A program made the translations under genes and the position numbers. Below the pieces are notes generated by a model. That model was not told where the DNA came from, made no database searches, and was given only the letters and a program-made list of their open reading frames with translations. From positions 124,001-188,000 of the forward strand of contig JAPLFQ010000022.1 of assembly GCA_026390595.1 (NCBI GenBank): a stretch of 64,000 bases of DNA, in the 5' to 3' direction. Positions 14,979 to 25,729 of this stretch are shown piece after piece. Every line of letters starts with the position of its first letter. Position 1 is the first letter of the stretch. This DNA comes from Ignavibacteriales bacterium (GTDB lineage Bacteria; Bacteroidota; Ignavibacteria; UBA10030).

Positions 14979-17900
14979 ATGAAACCACGAGCCAGAAAAC
15001 AGGTCACGCCTCGCAAAGAGGCGAAACAAGCTCGGCACACCAGTCACACAACGTATCGCGGTTTTCTTGAGTCCGCCGGCGATGCCATCTTCCTCCTCAG
15101 CGGCGGCACAGGCAAGATCGTCGATGTGAACAAGGCGGCGTTGCGAATGTTCGGATTGCGTTCGAAGAAAGCTATCCTGGACGGGCAAATCGACGGATTG
15201 AATGCCGGAGGGACGCCATTCACGATCAAAGAGTTACATCGCCGGATGCGTCTCGCCTCGTCCGGGAAGCCGCAGAGGTTCGAGTGGTTGGTCAAAAAAC
15301 CGAATGGAACGAAGTTCTGGGTCGAAGCTTCGCTTTGCGCCACGGAGGTTGAAGGAGAAAAGCGCATCCTGGCCCTTGTGCATGACATCGATGAACGAAA
15401 ACAGACGGAACAGACGCTTCGCGAGAGCCGGGATCGATACCGCAATCTGATCAACCTCGCTGTTGATGGTGTGCTTGTCGGTTCATCCGAGGGGATTATC
15501 ATTGAGGCGAATTCATGCATGTGCGCCATGACAGGGCGGAGTCGCAAAGAACTCCTCGGCAAACACATAAGCAAAGCGTTCTTTGCGCCGGAAAGTCTGA
15601 AGCATACACCGCTGCGCTTTGATTTGCTTGAAAAAGGTGAAATGGTTGTCAGCGAAAGAACCATCGTGCGCCCGGACGGGACGGAAATCCCCGTCGAAAT
15701 GCGATCGAAGAAAATGCCTAACGGTACGTACCAATCGATATATCGCAACATCACTGAGCGCAAGCGGGCGGAGGAGACACTGCAGGAAAGTGAATCCGAA
15801 TTCCGCCAGTTATGGGGCGCCACAGTTGAGGGAATCGTGATCCATGACGGAGGTGTGATCCTGGAAGTGAATAATGCGATGTGCCAAATGTTCGGAATTG
15901 CCCGTGAACAAGTCCTTGGCAAATCGTTGTTTGCTTTTGCGCCACCTGAGTCCCGCGACGGCATCCGGGCACATGTTGCGTCAGAATCAGGGGAACGCTT
16001 TGAGACTCCTGCTCTGCGTGCCGACGGTACCCCGTTTACAGTCGAAGCATTTCCGAGTCAGATTTACTATCACGGCAAGATGGTGCGGATGGTAGCGTGC
16101 AGGGATATCACAGCGCGAAAACAATCCGAGCTTTCGCTCGCAAAACTGAAACAAGCGATCGACACCTCCGGCGAGGCGATATTCATAACTGACCGGGAAG
16201 GTGTTTTTACGTATGTCAATCCCGGCTTCAGTGACCTCTACGGGTATACAGGAGATGAGGTGATTGGAAAAGAGACGCCGCGCATTCTTAAGAGCGGCCT
16301 GCTGAACGAGAAGACATACGAACAATTTTGGAAAACGATATCTTCCGGCCAGGAAGTAAGAGGAGAACTTCTCAACAAGCACAAAGACGGCCGTGTGATC
16401 GAAATCGATGGATCGGCAACCCCTATCGTTGATGAGAACAAAAGAATTATCGGCTACCTGGGGATTCAGCGCAACATCACGGAACGCAAAAACGTCGAGA
16501 GGGCGCTGCGTGAAAGCGAAACACGTCTGCGCACCATCATCGATGCCGAGCCGGAATGCGTTAAAGTCCTCTCTCTCGACGGCAAGGTTCTCGAGATGAA
16601 TCAGGCGGGGCTTGCGATGCTTGAAGCAGAGTCGCTCGAAGAACTCCGCCGGCAGAGCCTGGCAGAGTATGTTGTTCCGTCTTGTCGTGACAACTTCCTC
16701 AAATACTTTCGCGATACTCTCCGCGGTCCGACCTCCCGGACCCTGGAATTTGAAGTCGTTGGCCTGCGGGGTACGCATCGGTGGCTCGAAACCAGTGCGG
16801 TCCCTCTGCTCGACGATCAGCAGCGGACAGCGGCAGTGCTTGGCATCACCCGCGACATCACCGAGCGTAAACGGGCAGACGAAGCACTCCGCGAGAATGA
16901 GGAGAAATTCCGCATCGCCTTCGATAATGCACCAACGGGCATGAGCATCATCCACCCCGACGGTACGTACGTCGAAGTGAATCCTTGCCTCTGTCAAATG
17001 TTTGGCTATACCAGGGAGGAACTCCTGTCTGGGACAATCAACAGGATCACCCACCCTGACGATGTCGAGCGCGGAAACCAGTGGATACAAAAGATGATTG
17101 CCGGCGATCTCAGTGAGCCTGAGTTCGAGAAACGATACATTCACAAGGACGGACACATCGTCTGGGGCCTCGTGCGGGCTCGGTGGACAATAAAGGCAGA
17201 CGGGACCGTGCTGATGTCCATCGCGCATATTCTGGACATCACCGAGCGCAAGAAGGCGGAAGAGGCGTTGCGTGACAGCGAATCACGATATCGATCCCTG
17301 ATCGAGGGCATCGCCGATATTGTTCTTGTGACAGACTTGTCGGGTACATTCTTGTTCTGTAATCCGGCATTCGAGTTGCAGACCGGATATGCGAGCCAAG
17401 ATTTTCATACACAGGAGATCACCCAGTCCCTCTATCACCCCGATGATGTTGACAAAATACGCACAATCATGGGCGACTTCATCCGGGCTCAGGATACAAG
17501 CACGGACATATTCGAATACCGCCTGCGACACAAGACGGGGAGTCTTTCCTGGCAGAGTGCCATCGCGAACCGGATCGTCTATCAGGGGAAACCAGCAATA
17601 CAAATTATCAGCCGCAACATATCCGAACGCAAGCGGGCGCAAGAGGCGTTGCGCGACAACGAAGAACGGATGCGCTCAATTATCGATCATGCTCCCTTTG
17701 GCGCACACTCGTACACACTGCAAGCGGACGGGCAGTTGATTCTTGACGGGGTGAACAATTCCGCAAACCGCATGCTCAACTTTGATCATTCCGCCGTCCT
17801 TGGAAAACGGATTGAAGATGCGTTTCCAGGACTCTCGGAGACCGTAGTTCCCGAAACGTATCGGCGCGTCGCTGCTTCGGGTGAGAGTTATTCAACCGAC

Positions 17901-20282
17901 CAGATCGCGTATCACGAGGGGACCATTCATGGGGCTTTTGAGATCCATGCGTTTCAAACTGCGCCCAACCGGATGACCGTCTTCTTCCGGGACATCACGG
18001 AGCGTAAGAAGGCGGAAGAGGCTCTGCGCGAAAGCGAAAACCGGATGAAGAGTATCTTTCGGGCTGCACCGGTGGGGATAGGATCAGTTACCAATCGCGT
18101 ATTGTCTGAGGCGAACGCGAAACTCTGCGAAATCACCGGATATCAGCGGGAAGAACTTCTTGGCAGGAGTTCAAGAATCCTCTATCCCACGGAGAAGGAC
18201 TTCGAATTCGTCGGAACGGAGAAGTACCGTCAAATCGCAGAGACGGGAACCGGTACGGTTGAAACCCGCTGGAAGCGAAAAGACGGGTCGGTCATCGACG
18301 TGCTGCTTTCCTCAACGCCCATTGATCCTTCGGATTTGTCTCATGGCGTAACATTCACCGCCCTTGATATTACGGAACGCAAACGGTCAGAAGAAGCCCT
18401 CAAACGGTATCAGCTTCTTTCACAGAACACGCGCGATATCATCCTGTTTGTTCGGGCGAGCGACGGGCAGATTCTGGAGGCCAACGATGCGGCTGTACAG
18501 GCCTATGGCTATGGTCGCGAAGACCTCATGATGAAGTCCATCCGCGATTTACGTGCTCAGGAATCGACGGCGGAGCTGGCGAAGCAGATAGATGAGGCGA
18601 ACCGGGCGGGCCTCTCATTTGAGACACTCCATCGTCGGCGGGATGGCACCACATTTCCCGTTGAAGTGAATGCTCGAGGCATGACCATGGGTGAGGATCG
18701 CATTCTCATGAGCATTGTTCGCGACATCACTGAACGCAAGCAGGCAGATGAAGCCCTCCGAAAGAGCGAGGCACAGTACCGCGATCTCATTGAGACCATG
18801 CCGGACGGCGTGTACCGAAGCTCGCACGACGGAAAGTTCCTCGAAGTCAATCCGGCGATGGTGAAGATACTCGGATACGACAGCAAGGAGGAGCTCCTCG
18901 CGATCGACATCAAGTCGCAACTGTATTTTGACGAAGAGGATCGTGACAGTGCCGCGCTGGAGGAGAAGAATGAAGAAATGGCCGTCTTTCGTCTGAGGAA
19001 GAAAGACGGATCAGAGGTGTGGGTTGAAGACCATGGAAGGCACGTGGTCGATGAGGCGGGTACCATCCTCTACCATGAAGGCATCCTGCGTGATATCACG
19101 GAGCGAAAACGCATGGAAGGGGATCGGGCGAGAATCGAGAATCAGATTCAGCAAACGCAGAAACTTGAATCGCTTGGTCTGCTCGCCGGCGGTATCGCCC
19201 ACGACTTCAACAATCTTCTGAGCGGCATCTTTGGGTACATCGAGCTGGCAAAAAAGAGCGCCGATGCCGGCCAGATTCAAATAGCCTCCGAGCGGCTTTC
19301 CAAAGCCATGAATGTCTTTGGCAGGGCACGAGACCTCTCACGCCAGCTCATCACGTTTGCCAAAGGAGGTGCTCCCGCCAAAACGGCCGGCGAAATCGGC
19401 CGAACCGTGTCGGAAACGGTCCAGTTCGCCCTGAGCGGCTCAAACGTGAAATGCGACTATTCAATCGCAGACGATCTCTGGCCGTGCATGTACGACCCGA
19501 ACCAGGTCGGCCAGGTCATCGACAACATCGTCATCAACGCAAAGCATGCAATGCCGAATGGCGGTTCGCTGGCGGTCTCGGCCTCCAATGTTCTCATCGA
19601 TGCCGGTTCGGGCATCGCACTTCCCAACGGCAGCTACATTCGGATCTCGATCAAAGATCACGGCATCGGCATTCCAAAGGAGTATCTCCAGAAAATATTC
19701 GATCCGTTCTTTACCACCAAACATACGGGGAGCGGCCTCGGGCTCGCCACTTGCTGGTCAATTGTGAAACGGCACGAAGGCACCATCGTAGTGGAATCAG
19801 AACCGGGGAAAGGCTCAACATTCCACGTCTTCTTCCCCGCGGAACACGGCGCTGTGTCCGCGGGCAGCACAGTATCTGTAACAGATTTCGTCGGACACGG
19901 ACGGGTCCTTGTCATGGACGACGAGGAACATATCCGTGAAATCCTGGAGGAGATGCTGACCGATCTTGGCTACGCCGTCCAAACCGCCCGCGACGGTGCG
20001 GAAGCGATCGAATACTTCTCGAGAGCAAGTACGGAAGGAAATCCGTTTGACATGGTCTTGGTCGACCTCACAATACCCGGAGGGATGGGGGGAAAAGAAA
20101 CATTGACCAGGCTTGTGGAATTGAAACAGAATGTCTGCGTGATCGCTTCAAGCGGGTACTCCGAAGATCCTGTCATCTCGGCGCCGCGCGACTTCGGATT
20201 CGCCGCGAGCATTCGCAAGCCGTACCGCAAAACGGATCTCATTGAAGCGATTGTGAATGCCCTTGCCACACGGACAGAGTAG
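14979..20282 (+). CDS. Hybrid histidine kinase with 11 tandem PAS units
   Basis: The 1767-residue protein has no visible membrane segment or signal peptide, so it probably senses in the cytoplasm. I count 11 PAS units. Each ends in an ITERK-type linker, at about residues 135, 255, 375, 497, 624, 752, 877, 1004, 1129, 1247 and 1370. The phospho-acceptor helix reads LGLLAGGIAHDFNNLLSG (H1408). The ATPase domain has DNIVINAKHAMPNGG (N box), DHGIGIPKEY and GSGLGLATCWSIV. A receiver domain follows, with VMDDEEH, phospho-acceptor LVDLTIP (D1696) and IRKPY. A phosphorelay partner is needed but none is adjacent. The start follows AAAGGAA. Its position 17 bases after bglX suggests co-transcription, though a role in sugar sensing is only inference. 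Confidence 0.93.
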   Translation: MKPRARKQVTPRKEAKQARHTSHTTYRGFLESAGDAIFLLSGGTGKIVDVNKAALRMFGLRSKKAILDGQIDGLNAGGTPFTIKELHRRMRLASSGKPQRFEWLVKKPNGTKFWVEASLCATEVEGEKRILALVHDIDERKQTEQTLRESRDRYRNLINLAVDGVLVGSSEGIIIEANSCMCAMTGRSRKELLGKHISKAFFAPESLKHTPLRFDLLEKGEMVVSERTIVRPDGTEIPVEMRSKKMPNGTYQSIYRNITERKRAEETLQESESEFRQLWGATVEGIVIHDGGVILEVNNAMCQMFGIAREQVLGKSLFAFAPPESRDGIRAHVASESGERFETPALRADGTPFTVEAFPSQIYYHGKMVRMVACRDITARKQSELSLAKLKQAIDTSGEAIFITDREGVFTYVNPGFSDLYGYTGDEVIGKETPRILKSGLLNEKTYEQFWKTISSGQEVRGELLNKHKDGRVIEIDGSATPIVDENKRIIGYLGIQRNITERKNVERALRESETRLRTIIDAEPECVKVLSLDGKVLEMNQAGLAMLEAESLEELRRQSLAEYVVPSCRDNFLKYFRDTLRGPTSRTLEFEVVGLRGTHRWLETSAVPLLDDQQRTAAVLGITRDITERKRADEALRENEEKFRIAFDNAPTGMSIIHPDGTYVEVNPCLCQMFGYTREELLSGTINRITHPDDVERGNQWIQKMIAGDLSEPEFEKRYIHKDGHIVWGLVRARWTIKADGTVLMSIAHILDITERKKAEEALRDSESRYRSLIEGIADIVLVTDLSGTFLFCNPAFELQTGYASQDFHTQEITQSLYHPDDVDKIRTIMGDFIRAQDTSTDIFEYRLRHKTGSLSWQSAIANRIVYQGKPAIQIISRNISERKRAQEALRDNEERMRSIIDHAPFGAHSYTLQADGQLILDGVNNSANRMLNFDHSAVLGKRIEDAFPGLSETVVPETYRRVAASGESYSTDQIAYHEGTIHGAFEIHAFQTAPNRMTVFFRDITERKKAEEALRESENRMKSIFRAAPVGIGSVTNRVLSEANAKLCEITGYQREELLGRSSRILYPTEKDFEFVGTEKYRQIAETGTGTVETRWKRKDGSVIDVLLSSTPIDPSDLSHGVTFTALDITERKRSEEALKRYQLLSQNTRDIILFVRASDGQILEANDAAVQAYGYGREDLMMKSIRDLRAQESTAELAKQIDEANRAGLSFETLHRRRDGTTFPVEVNARGMTMGEDRILMSIVRDITERKQADEALRKSEAQYRDLIETMPDGVYRSSHDGKFLEVNPAMVKILGYDSKEELLAIDIKSQLYFDEEDRDSAALEEKNEEMAVFRLRKKDGSEVWVEDHGRHVVDEAGTILYHEGILRDITERKRMEGDRARIENQIQQTQKLESLGLLAGGIAHDFNNLLSGIFGYIELAKKSADAGQIQIASERLSKAMNVFGRARDLSRQLITFAKGGAPAKTAGEIGRTVSETVQFALSGSNVKCDYSIADDLWPCMYDPNQVGQVIDNIVINAKHAMPNGGSLAVSASNVLIDAGSGIALPNGSYIRISIKDHGIGIPKEYLQKIFDPFFTTKHTGSGLGLATCWSIVKRHEGTIVVESEPGKGSTFHVFFPAEHGAVSAGSTVSVTDFVGHGRVLVMDDEEHIREILEEMLTDLGYAVQTARDGAEAIEYFSRASTEGNPFDMVLVDLTIPGGMGGKETLTRLVELKQNVCVIASSGYSEDPVISAPRDFGFAASIRKPYRKTDLIEAIVNALATRTE

Positions 20283-22614: not shown

Positions 22615-23781
22615 TCAGTCAGTCTGGTTCAACGACGGCCCGCGTGTCAGACTGATAGCCGACCGGAGCAAGGAAGGAGAGAGTGACAGCAGAGCGACCC
22701 CGAAGCGGCGGAGCGGAGTCGAAAGCACGATGCGCTGCAATGCGGCTGCGGCGCGTATGCGAGAATTGAACATGAGCTCCCATCGCCTGCGATACTCCGC
22801 CTCCAGAGCACGCTCATCGGGAGTTGAACTGCGGGCATCCAGAAAAAGCCGCCCCAGCATATGAGCACTTTGCATCGCCATGCTGATGCCATCACCTGCC
22901 AGCGGCGAAATCACCCTGCCTGCATCGCCTATCATGAAGATTCCGTTCTCAACGAGATTTCGCGCACCGAAAAAGATGTTGCCTGTCCCATAGACTTGTG
23001 CACGTTCTGCCGTCGCAATTCCAGACCCGCCCATGACATCAGCAAAGTGCGGGTTTGCCCTCATCAGTTCACGCAGGCGTGCCCGAGGCGGAACATCGTC
23101 GCCCGATCGCCGCTCAAGGAAACAAATCGTTGCGAATCCGTTTCCAACATGGTTGACTCCGCAATACATCCCGGGCCCGGCGAAAATCCGAATCTCGTCC
23201 TCATCTATTCCGACCAACGCTTCCGACGGCACGTGAAACTTCATGCCGTTCATCTGTGTGCGTGCTCCTGCACACTGTCGACCCAACCGCTTGTCAAGCG
23301 GAGAAGTCTTTCCGTACGCGCATATACACCACCGTGAGTAAAGTATCAATGGTGCGCCGTCCATTCGACAATGAATCTCGAAACCATCCGCACTCCGAAG
23401 AATGTCATCCGCTTCAGCCGGCTGTAGCAGCTTCACTCCGTTCCTGGCTGCCGTGTTCAACAGAAGCTCATCGAACGCCCCACGCTTCATGCCATATCCC
23501 GCAAAACCGAGCAGTTCGGAGAACATCGGTCCCCGATCTGGACATAGCGTGAACCTCGAGATCCGAGCCGGGCCGAGTGAAAGGAATTCACTCTCGATGC
23601 CAAGGTCGCGGGTTATGCCGACCACCTCGTGTGAGAGGAATTCGCCACAAAGGATCTCGCGTGGAAATGTCCGGCGTTCCACCAGGCAGACGGAATAGCC
23701 CGCTCGTGCCAACTGGAGTGCCACAGTTGCCCCGGCCGGCCCGCCTCCAATAACCACGCAGTCATACCTGTTTTCGGCCAT
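22615..23781 (-). CDS. FAD-dependent oxidoreductase, geranylgeranyl reductase/hydroxylase-like (polyketide operon)
   Basis: The 388-residue flavoprotein begins with an FAD-binding motif (CVVIGGGPAGATVALQLARAG). It also has the second FAD contact, FMIGDAGRVISPLAGDGISMAMQSA, near residue 300. This is the pattern of the geranylgeranyl-reductase/PHBH-like group. Its start overlaps the end of the methyltransferase gene by 20 bases, and it is the third gene of a type III polyketide synthase operon. By analogy with srsABC of Streptomyces, where a flavoprotein hydroxylates the resorcinol ring, it may oxidise the polyketide product. A reductase role on an isoprenoid or alkyl chain is the main alternative. 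Confidence 0.85.
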   Translation of the reverse strand: MAENRYDCVVIGGGPAGATVALQLARAGYSVCLVERRTFPREILCGEFLSHEVVGITRDLGIESEFLSLGPARISRFTLCPDRGPMFSELLGFAGYGMKRGAFDELLLNTAARNGVKLLQPAEADDILRSADGFEIHCRMDGAPLILYSRWCICAYGKTSPLDKRLGRQCAGARTQMNGMKFHVPSEALVGIDEDEIRIFAGPGMYCGVNHVGNGFATICFLERRSGDDVPPRARLRELMRANPHFADVMGGSGIATAERAQVYGTGNIFFGARNLVENGIFMIGDAGRVISPLAGDGISMAMQSAHMLGRLFLDARSSTPDERALEAEYRRRWELMFNSRIRAAAALQRIVLSTPLRRFGVALLSLSPSLLRSAISLTRGPSLNQTD

Positions 23782-24466
23782 GGCGATCTTCGGGGAATGA
23801 AATGGAAACCAGCCAGCGGAACGCCCAATGGCGCGTGATGGTCACCGATCCGTGTCTGGAAGCAATTTCGGATAGTTCCTTCTTCAAAAAGCCGCGTCGG
23901 ACGGATAGCGGCCCATCGTGTCGCACCATCGAACTGCGTGAAAACAGGGACGTCAGAAGCGTGATGCCGAGGAATGCCCAGACCGATCTTCGCAGATCAT
24001 TGATGACGATGCCCACTCGGGCCACTCGTGACCATTCGGCGAACAACCCGTCAAGTTCAGGCTCAGTAAAATGATGACAAAACAGAGCGGCGTGGACGAT
24101 ATCGAATGAACGATCGCAGAACGGCAGTCGGAGCGCCGACGCGTTAACCACGCTCATCGGCGAGATCCGTGGCCGGGAAGATTGGCAGGCGCGGAAATTC
24201 AGATCAAGGGCTGTAACGTGGAACGGTCGTCCGAGCTCGCGCAACGCGTGAACAAGGTCCGAGCCTCCCGCTCCACAGTCGAGGATTTGGAGCGGACGAT
24301 CAATCGGTATTGCCTCGGTTGCTCGTCTGATGCCCGACGTGGAAACCCGGTCGCCACCGAGCAAACGATTGATCACACTCAATTCCGCCAGGGCAGCGTC
24401 GATCCGTTCGTCGTTGATCGACATATCGTCCATGATTTCCCTGGACGTGCTGCGTGGACCCAGCAT
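23762..24466 (-). CDS. Class I SAM-dependent methyltransferase (polyketide operon)
   Basis: The 234-residue protein has a Rossmann-fold SAM site: motif I PLQILDCGAGGSDLVHAL at about residues 57-74. An acidic residue follows in VTALDLNF, and FDIVHAALFCHHF is motif post-II/III. The C-terminal part holds a hydrophobic segment, VWAFLGITLLTSLF, which may associate with the membrane. I chose the ATG at 24466 because it overlaps the polyketide synthase stop as TGATG, the usual form of translational coupling. The likely substrate is the type III polyketide product, for O- or C-methylation. Confidence 0.85.
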   Translation of the reverse strand: MLGPRSTSREIMDDMSINDERIDAALAELSVINRLLGGDRVSTSGIRRATEAIPIDRPLQILDCGAGGSDLVHALRELGRPFHVTALDLNFRACQSSRPRISPMSVVNASALRLPFCDRSFDIVHAALFCHHFTEPELDGLFAEWSRVARVGIVINDLRRSVWAFLGITLLTSLFSRSSMVRHDGPLSVRRGFLKKELSEIASRHGSVTITRHWAFRWLVSISFPEDRHGRKQV

Positions 24467-25554
24467 CAAATCCCTTTCAGGAAGGCCAGTTCCATGGACA
24501 GCCCGGGACCGAACGCAATCGCGCAGAGCCACTCATCCTTTTGCAGTCGCGTACGGGAAAAGAGTTCTTTCAGGACAAAGAGAATTGACGCGGACGACAT
24601 GTTGCCGTACCGACGAAGAACGGCACGGGACGGATCAGTTTGCTCATCGGTCAGACGAAGTCCGTTCTGAAGCGAGTCAATGATCGCACGCCCGCCGGGA
24701 TGCAGGGCCCAGTGACGGATACGCTCCGGCTCGAGCCCCATGCGCCCGATTACCTGTCTGGCTACCGGCACTGCTTGTTGGAGAATGATCTCCGGCAATT
24801 CCGAAGAGAGCATCATCTCAAATCCGGTATTCCCGATTTCCCATCCCATCAGTTGCGCTGATGCAGGGAATATGTGCGAAGAGGTTCCAACCAGGCGGGC
24901 TTTAGCCTGAACGTCGTGCGAGGCGGAAAACAGCGCAGCTCCGCAACCGTCAGCGAAAATCATGTTGGCCAAAATATTGTCGCGTGTCGGCTCTGTTTGC
25001 AGATGGAGCGAGCAAAGCTCGACGGAGACAAGCAGTGTTGTACGTTCCGCAGCGCCGGCCCCGCGCAATGACTCAAACACGGATGTAAAACCGACAAGCG
25101 CCGCGGCACACCCCATGAAACCGATATGCGTGCGTTGAACATCGGGCGGAAGACCAAGCGTTGTGATAAGATGATGATCGAAGTTCGGTGCAGAAAATCC
25201 GGTGCACGAAACCGTGATCAGCCGGCTGATCGACGATGGCGCATAGCCGGTCGATACAAGGAGATCAGTCACCGCGGCAACCGAAAGCGTATTTGCCCAT
25301 TGTTTGTACAGTTGCATGCGCTCCCTTGTACCCGGCGCTGGTGCGGCCGGATCCGTGGAATAGAAGCGGGTGGCGGCGGACGGATCTGCATCCGGAACGA
25401 CAACGGCGCGGGTTTCGATGCCCGAACGGGCAGCGGCAGCGTCGATCATGCGCGCGACCGCGGGCCGTTCGCCCATTCGGCGTTTTAGTTCTTCGGCGGC
25501 TCGTTGCTGGGAGACAATGTAGGGGGGTGAAGTTGTGGCAATCTGTATGAGCAC
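24466..25554 (-). CDS. Type III polyketide synthase (chalcone/stilbene synthase family)
   Basis: This 362-residue homodimeric enzyme condenses malonyl-CoA extenders onto an acyl-CoA starter. The catalytic triad is readable: Cys149 in HIGFMGCAAAL, His285 in HWALHPGG and Asn318 in RYGNMSSAS. SCTGFSAPNFDHHLI at about 116-130 is also characteristic. The start is probably the GTG at 25554, preceded by GGAGGG at five bases; the ATG 60 bases upstream has no such site and would add a non-family extension. With the methyltransferase and flavoprotein it forms an overlapping three-gene operon. Products of such bacterial operons are alkylresorcinols, alkylpyrones or quinones; which one is made here cannot be read from sequence. 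Confidence 0.93.
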   Translation of the reverse strand: MLIQIATTSPPYIVSQQRAAEELKRRMGERPAVARMIDAAAARSGIETRAVVVPDADPSAATRFYSTDPAAPAPGTRERMQLYKQWANTLSVAAVTDLLVSTGYAPSSISRLITVSCTGFSAPNFDHHLITTLGLPPDVQRTHIGFMGCAAALVGFTSVFESLRGAGAAERTTLLVSVELCSLHLQTEPTRDNILANMIFADGCGAALFSASHDVQAKARLVGTSSHIFPASAQLMGWEIGNTGFEMMLSSELPEIILQQAVPVARQVIGRMGLEPERIRHWALHPGGRAIIDSLQNGLRLTDEQTDPSRAVLRRYGNMSSASILFVLKELFSRTRLQKDEWLCAIAFGPGLSMELAFLKGI

Positions 25555-25729
25555 GCGGTCCCTCCGTCCTTTCTGACGATGGACCAATGTAAAGAATAGC
25601 GATGTGAGTCTCAAGCGGCTTGAGCGCTGCAGAGAATTTCCGTACTATTCTGCGTCATTGCCCGCCTGCTCAAAGGCGCAAGTTCGTTGTGGGCACAAAA
25701 TCCTTCAGCATCACAACACAGAATCGGTC

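Follow-up and report, generated by a model that had tools for sequence, protein, structure and literature searches.

Operons that combine a type III polyketide synthase (PKS), a methyltransferase and an FAD-dependent oxidoreductase have been described in planctomycetes and cyanobacteria. For planctomycetes, the available text of Milke et al. 2024 (PMC10896814) reports that 58 of 96 type III PKS genes sit in such operons and that the tested synthases yielded pentadecyl- and heptadecylresorcinols. A single methyl group, probably on carbon, was introduced when the G. maris partners were co-expressed; the role of the flavoprotein was left undecided and, in that text, no oxidised product is described upon its co-expression. 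For cyanobacteria, the accessible part of PMC8086630 counts 47 hierridin-like clusters, whose genes are arranged in either of two ways (synthase-methyltransferase-oxidoreductase being one), and words the HidA and HidB steps that follow the synthase as reduction and methylation; hierridin B is hydroxylated at position 4 according to the available text of PMC10896814. Actinomycete operons of like logic produce alkylquinones for which a role in respiration is proposed, and srsABC and pkqABC share with the locus described here the combination of type III PKS, methyltransferase and hydroxylase/oxidoreductase (PMC9927152, in the part accessible).

The present locus lies in a stretch of 64,000 nucleotides (the window) from an Ignavibacteriales bacterium and is a new branch of the operon type known from cyanobacteria and planctomycetes. 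Among the papers listed for Ignavibacteria together with type III PKS terms, none names such an operon in its title or the opening of its abstract.

Gene arrangement and conservation among relatives

The features of the locus are the following (window coordinates):

24466-25554, minus strand: type III polyketide synthase, 362 aa, GTG start at 25554, TGA stop ending at 24466
23762-24466, minus strand: class I SAM-dependent methyltransferase, 234 aa, ATG start, stop ending at 23762
22615-23781, minus strand: FAD flavoprotein, 388 aa, ATG at 23781, with a halogenase/hydroxylase/geranylgeranyl-reductase fold, DG-less ("type A", see below)
25561-25570, minus strand: likely ribosome-binding site AGGACGGAGG, 6 bases ahead of the synthase GTG, read from the sequence

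The genes are read in the order synthase, methyltransferase, flavoprotein. The synthase stop and the methyltransferase ATG overlap by 1 base, and the 3' end of the methyltransferase gene overlaps the 5' end of the flavoprotein gene by 20 bases, with the methyltransferase stop lying inside the latter. The coordinates, strand, order and overlaps given by a first-pass annotation were all confirmed in the sequence. The synthase is the one type III PKS found in the whole genome. An amidase gene (PF01425; 20905-22572, plus strand) is convergent with the operon and has a homologue in the loci of three close relatives (L050, L051 and L052); a 1767-aa hybrid histidine kinase, which combines about ten tandem PAS domains with a HATPase and a receiver domain, is encoded at 14979-20282 on the plus strand.

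Among the 43 named relatives, 38 carry the full set in the window order, and in the remaining five (L054, L067, L079, L082 and L091) the contig stops at most 248 bases from the last gene found. In the 34 loci with complete genes, the gene starts being picked by script, the synthase-methyltransferase distance ranged from -8 to +2 (29 overlaps of 1-8 bases, five gaps of 0-2) and the methyltransferase-flavoprotein distance from -70 to +504. The order kept in 38 of 43 loci, the contig ends in the other five and the preserved spacing of the first two genes together show that the arrangement is not due to chance. The operon has no general fourth gene: when the 262 other open reading frames of the 43 loci and the window stretch were clustered, the widest family reached 15 loci. 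A homologous gene, a possible glycosyltransferase by its start, recurs in 15 of the 43 Ignavibacteria loci (L049-L091), namely L059, L063, L067, L072, L076, L077 and nine others; in the six named loci it is encoded on the other strand, upstream of the synthase.

A synthase of the window clade (at least 55% identity) occurs in 14 of 61 genomes of the genus, family and order (genus 5/6, own genome included; family 5/26; order 4/29), and the methyltransferase and flavoprotein genes adjoin it in all 14 loci, so that the operon is patchy in distribution yet kept as a unit. Seven more of the 61 genomes gave a weak synthase match (28-33% identity, one interrupted by stops); within the short loci available around these, no match to the methyltransferase or the flavoprotein was found. 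Across a sample of the phylum, 175 of 395 genomes had a synthase match at E <= 1e-20. The genes, their linkage, their conservation and their families are directly established. The proposal of a single operon for a phenolic-lipid type of pathway is supported, the genes staying together in relatives, and the window operon is real and conserved, and is probably a functional one of alkylresorcinol type.

Synthase and methyltransferase compared with described systems

The window synthase is a type III PKS by its chalcone synthase domains (Chal_sti_synt_C, E 3.1e-24; PF02797 and PF00195 both above cut-off) and by its catalytic triad Cys149, His285 and Asn318, numbered from the GTG; the triad, already read as intact in the first pass, proved invariant across 16 aligned synthases. 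The methyltransferase matches Methyltransf_25 (E 2.1e-13). Its best NCBIfam model, NF004851 (148.6 of 243 bits), also ranks first for the Paludisphaera (232.4) and Deinococcus (334.5) operon enzymes. Its predicted structure (pLDDT 88.2) retrieved generic class I folds; as these include both C- and O-methyltransferases, they fit C- and O-methylation alike.

The three gene families of the window are those of the hid and planctomycetal operons (type III PKS, methyltransferase, FAD oxidoreductase). The Paludisphaera copy has the same best methyltransferase and flavoprotein models, and all three of its proteins are homologous to those of the window (E 7e-70, 4e-17 and 2e-16), the flavoprotein part being weak; identity is 39% for the synthase, 27% for the flavoprotein and 29% for the methyltransferase. 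The planctomycetal order is methyltransferase-oxidoreductase-PKS in the available description, whereas that of the window is PKS-methyltransferase-flavoprotein. The hidABC operon, likened here from the accessible part of its description, has the gene content of the window and, in one of its two arrangements, the same order, but belongs to a different phylum. A Deinococcus radiodurans plasmid and many Bacteroidia have the PKS-methyltransferase-flavoprotein order with window-like gene overlaps, the Deinococcus synthase being 37% identical to that of the window. Sixteen plasmid records were examined (14 of the 187 with a matching synthase, and two found via the flavoprotein). Seven, from other phyla, carry the three-gene set, in the window order in Deinococcus radiodurans, Falsirhodobacter, Mesorhizobium and Paracoccus, as methyltransferase-flavoprotein-PKS in Paludisphaera, and rearranged in Psychrobacter and Sphingobium; two of the 16 have no annotation at the place. 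On Lysinibacillus and Nitrobacter plasmids, the synthase lies beside an isoprenylcysteine-type methyltransferase.

A 56-row synthase tree, in which several branches are long and the deep order is unsure, places the 25 Ignavibacteria synthases (the window and 24 others) in a single clade (support 100/99). This clade groups with synthases linked to class I methyltransferases and flavoproteins, with Bacteroidia synthases, and with PKS18 and EsPKS1 (95/97), DpgA standing apart. A 95/90 branch separates the Ignavibacteria group from PKS11, a PhlD-like row, a pair linked to isoprenylcysteine-type methyltransferases and two Streptomyces rows. The first-pass annotation had drawn a parallel with srsABC, which holds for the general logic of the pathway but not for closer kinship. 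SrsB is an isoprenylcysteine-type methyltransferase, of another family than the class I enzyme of the window, and the window protein gave no significant match to two enzymes of the isoprenylcysteine type (best E 0.98). Kinship with srsABC was rejected on this difference, with support from the separate position of the isoprenylcysteine-linked synthases in the tree, SrsA and PkqA themselves lying outside the row set.

Residue C181 of the window synthase aligns with Cys205, one of the tunnel residues of PKS18, a pyrone synthase by the available text of PMC6274091; the 1tee chain, with Phe at this site, marked the place. His184 sits where PKS18 has Asn. This comparison agrees with a long acyl tunnel, which the aligned residues would permit without proving. 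The position of PKS18 in the same large tree group also bears on the chemistry, since the window synthase could, like PKS18, form alkyl-alpha-pyrones by lactonisation, the partner enzymes then methylating and oxidising the pyrone. Trp282, three residues ahead of the catalytic His, was considered as a resorcinol marker and dropped, as pyrone makers share it and the site of ArsB Trp281 could not be located in the alignment; being common to PKS18 and PKS11, it gives no argument for resorcinols over pyrones. We nevertheless consider pyrone formation unlikely: the tested planctomycetal synthases of the same operon type and HidC gave resorcinols, as stated in the accessible parts of PMC10896814 and PMC8086630.

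The flavoprotein and its exchange

The flavoprotein (FAD_binding_3, E 3.4e-20) had been assigned to the geranylgeranyl-reductase group. The corresponding model, TIGR02032, is indeed its best NCBIfam match, the monooxygenase QhpG coming next, but the score of 116.6 bits falls below the curated cut-off of 158.8. Moreover, geranylgeranyl reductases typically carry the motif YxWxFP, in whose place all 24 rows have YCG[VLIM]N; the family label was rejected on the absence of this motif. Among eight other flavoproteins scanned, seven share the best model of the window protein: five come from operons of other bacteria and likewise score below the cut-off, and two are lone proteins of Hymenobacter and Bernardetia, whereas the best model of the Deinococcus operon flavoprotein is of hydroxylase type. 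With the low score, the altered motif and the five operon flavoproteins elsewhere that have this best model too, the earlier step from the reductase label to a possible new product is weak; novelty of the product is conceivable, though the evidence does not point to it. The lone proteins are DG-less flavoproteins without an adjoining synthase, on plasmids of Hymenobacter (L106:3456-4640), where the gene comes after an isonitrile synthase and a TauD-type dioxygenase, and of Bernardetia (L107:3435-4652).

The predicted structure of the window flavoprotein (pLDDT 87.6) retrieved halogenases in the top eleven Foldseek rows (PltA, ChlB4, FasV, Bmp2, Mpy16 and CndH) and, at rank 12, 3oz2, a digeranylgeranylglycerophospholipid reductase; in VIA-align, the nearest structures were FasV, Bmp2, PltA, ChlB4 and 3-hydroxybenzoate 6-hydroxylase (Z 35 to 38). 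These matches raise the idea of a halogenase chlorinating the ring to a hierridin C-like product, and the xG[KR] motif is similar to the halogenase A-S-G and A-T-G in alignments. However, the column opposite the FasV lysine, which we take to be the halogenase catalytic lysine, is occupied by I, L or V in all 24 rows. The label of flavin-dependent halogenase was rejected for want of this lysine, and ring chlorination appears highly improbable.

The DG motif is a mark of class A NADPH-dependent flavin hydroxylases. Of 43 distinct flavoproteins compared, 35 are without its Asp (type A) and eight have it (type B); the window protein lacks it, and the class A label was accordingly rejected there. 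Type A is a motif label, not one demonstrated family, since a profile of the Ignavibacteria flavoproteins scores the halogenase PltA (102.3 bits) above the Sphingobium (98.6), Paludisphaera (97.6) and Psychrobacter (38.6) proteins; some DG-bearing flavoproteins (59.6) outscore the DG-less Psychrobacter one. The one type B protein that was scanned, that of Deinococcus, is similar to UbiH/PHBH hydroxylases and in this respect unlike the window protein; the other type B proteins match the Deinococcus one.

On a 38-row synthase tree, which carries long-branch warnings, the 20 type A and 8 type B operons are explained by one change, the type B operons forming one side of a branch with support 99/98; this count skips eight Bacteroidota loci without flavoprotein and two reference rows. 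Eighteen Bacteroidota loci taken at greater length comprise seven with a DG-bearing flavoprotein, three with a DG-less one, three with a methyltransferase only and five with the synthase alone. No flavoprotein was found beside the methyltransferase at L118, L121 and L125, L121 ending with its contig, and four Bacteroidota synthases with neither partner nearby (L113, L116, L123 and L124) form their own clade (100/100). The same place in the operon, the homologous partners and the single change on the synthase tree favour one common reaction, and suggest that type A and type B both perform ring hydroxylation, two separate reactions being possible. Of the new points of the analysis, we hold this exchange to be the most useful, since a swap of flavoprotein class at one operon position makes the role of the operon FAD protein testable.

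The exchange also weighs on a further idea, that the flavoprotein is a true reductase saturating the alkyl chain or reducing a ring intermediate. The best NCBIfam model, the presence of 3oz2 among the fold matches and the description of the HidA and HidB steps as reduction and methylation (PMC8086630, in the text available) speak for it; the score below cut-off, the altered motif and the classical hydroxylase occupying the same place in the sister clade speak against it, and we judge it distinctly unlikely.

Proposed pathway

For the operon, we infer the following substrate, step order and product, and a cellular role. The synthase would use Cys149 to take up a long-chain fatty acyl thioester and extend it with three malonyl units, an aldol condensation then closing the ring to a 5-alkylresorcinol. 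The methyltransferase would methylate the ring, at carbon or oxygen, and the flavoprotein may hydroxylate it to a methylated alkyl-hydroquinone, oxidisable to a benzoquinone. The locus is best explained as an alkylresorcinol-type operon akin to the hid and planctomycetal ones, a reading to which we give about an even chance. It is supported by the hid-like gene content and order, by the resorcinols obtained from planctomycetal synthases, by the synthase grouping, by C181 at the PKS18 tunnel site and by the methyltransferase model common to Paludisphaera and Deinococcus. Ring hydroxylation is supported by the one-change flavoprotein swap and by a fold near that of halogenases and 3-hydroxybenzoate 6-hydroxylase; the COX1-type oxidases of the genome, which make the use of oxygen likely, count in favour as well. 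Against these readings stand the 39% synthase identity to Paludisphaera, the absent DG motif, the scattered profile scores of the DG-less proteins and, in the published texts as available, the lack of an oxidised product with the G. maris flavoprotein and the pyrones made by PKS18 of the same large group.

Taken together, these results add Ignavibacteria to the groups that carry a published type of lipid operon. With three COX1-type and four UbiA-type matches in its genome, the organism likely uses oxygen and has an ordinary prenyl quinone; a polyketide quinone, if made, would come in addition to the latter. More speculatively, and with only a small chance in our estimation, the DG-less flavoproteins could be an uncharacterised ring-oxidising class that receives reduced flavin from elsewhere, and the fatty-acid-derived quinone of the operon could serve Ignavibacteria as an additional respiratory carrier.
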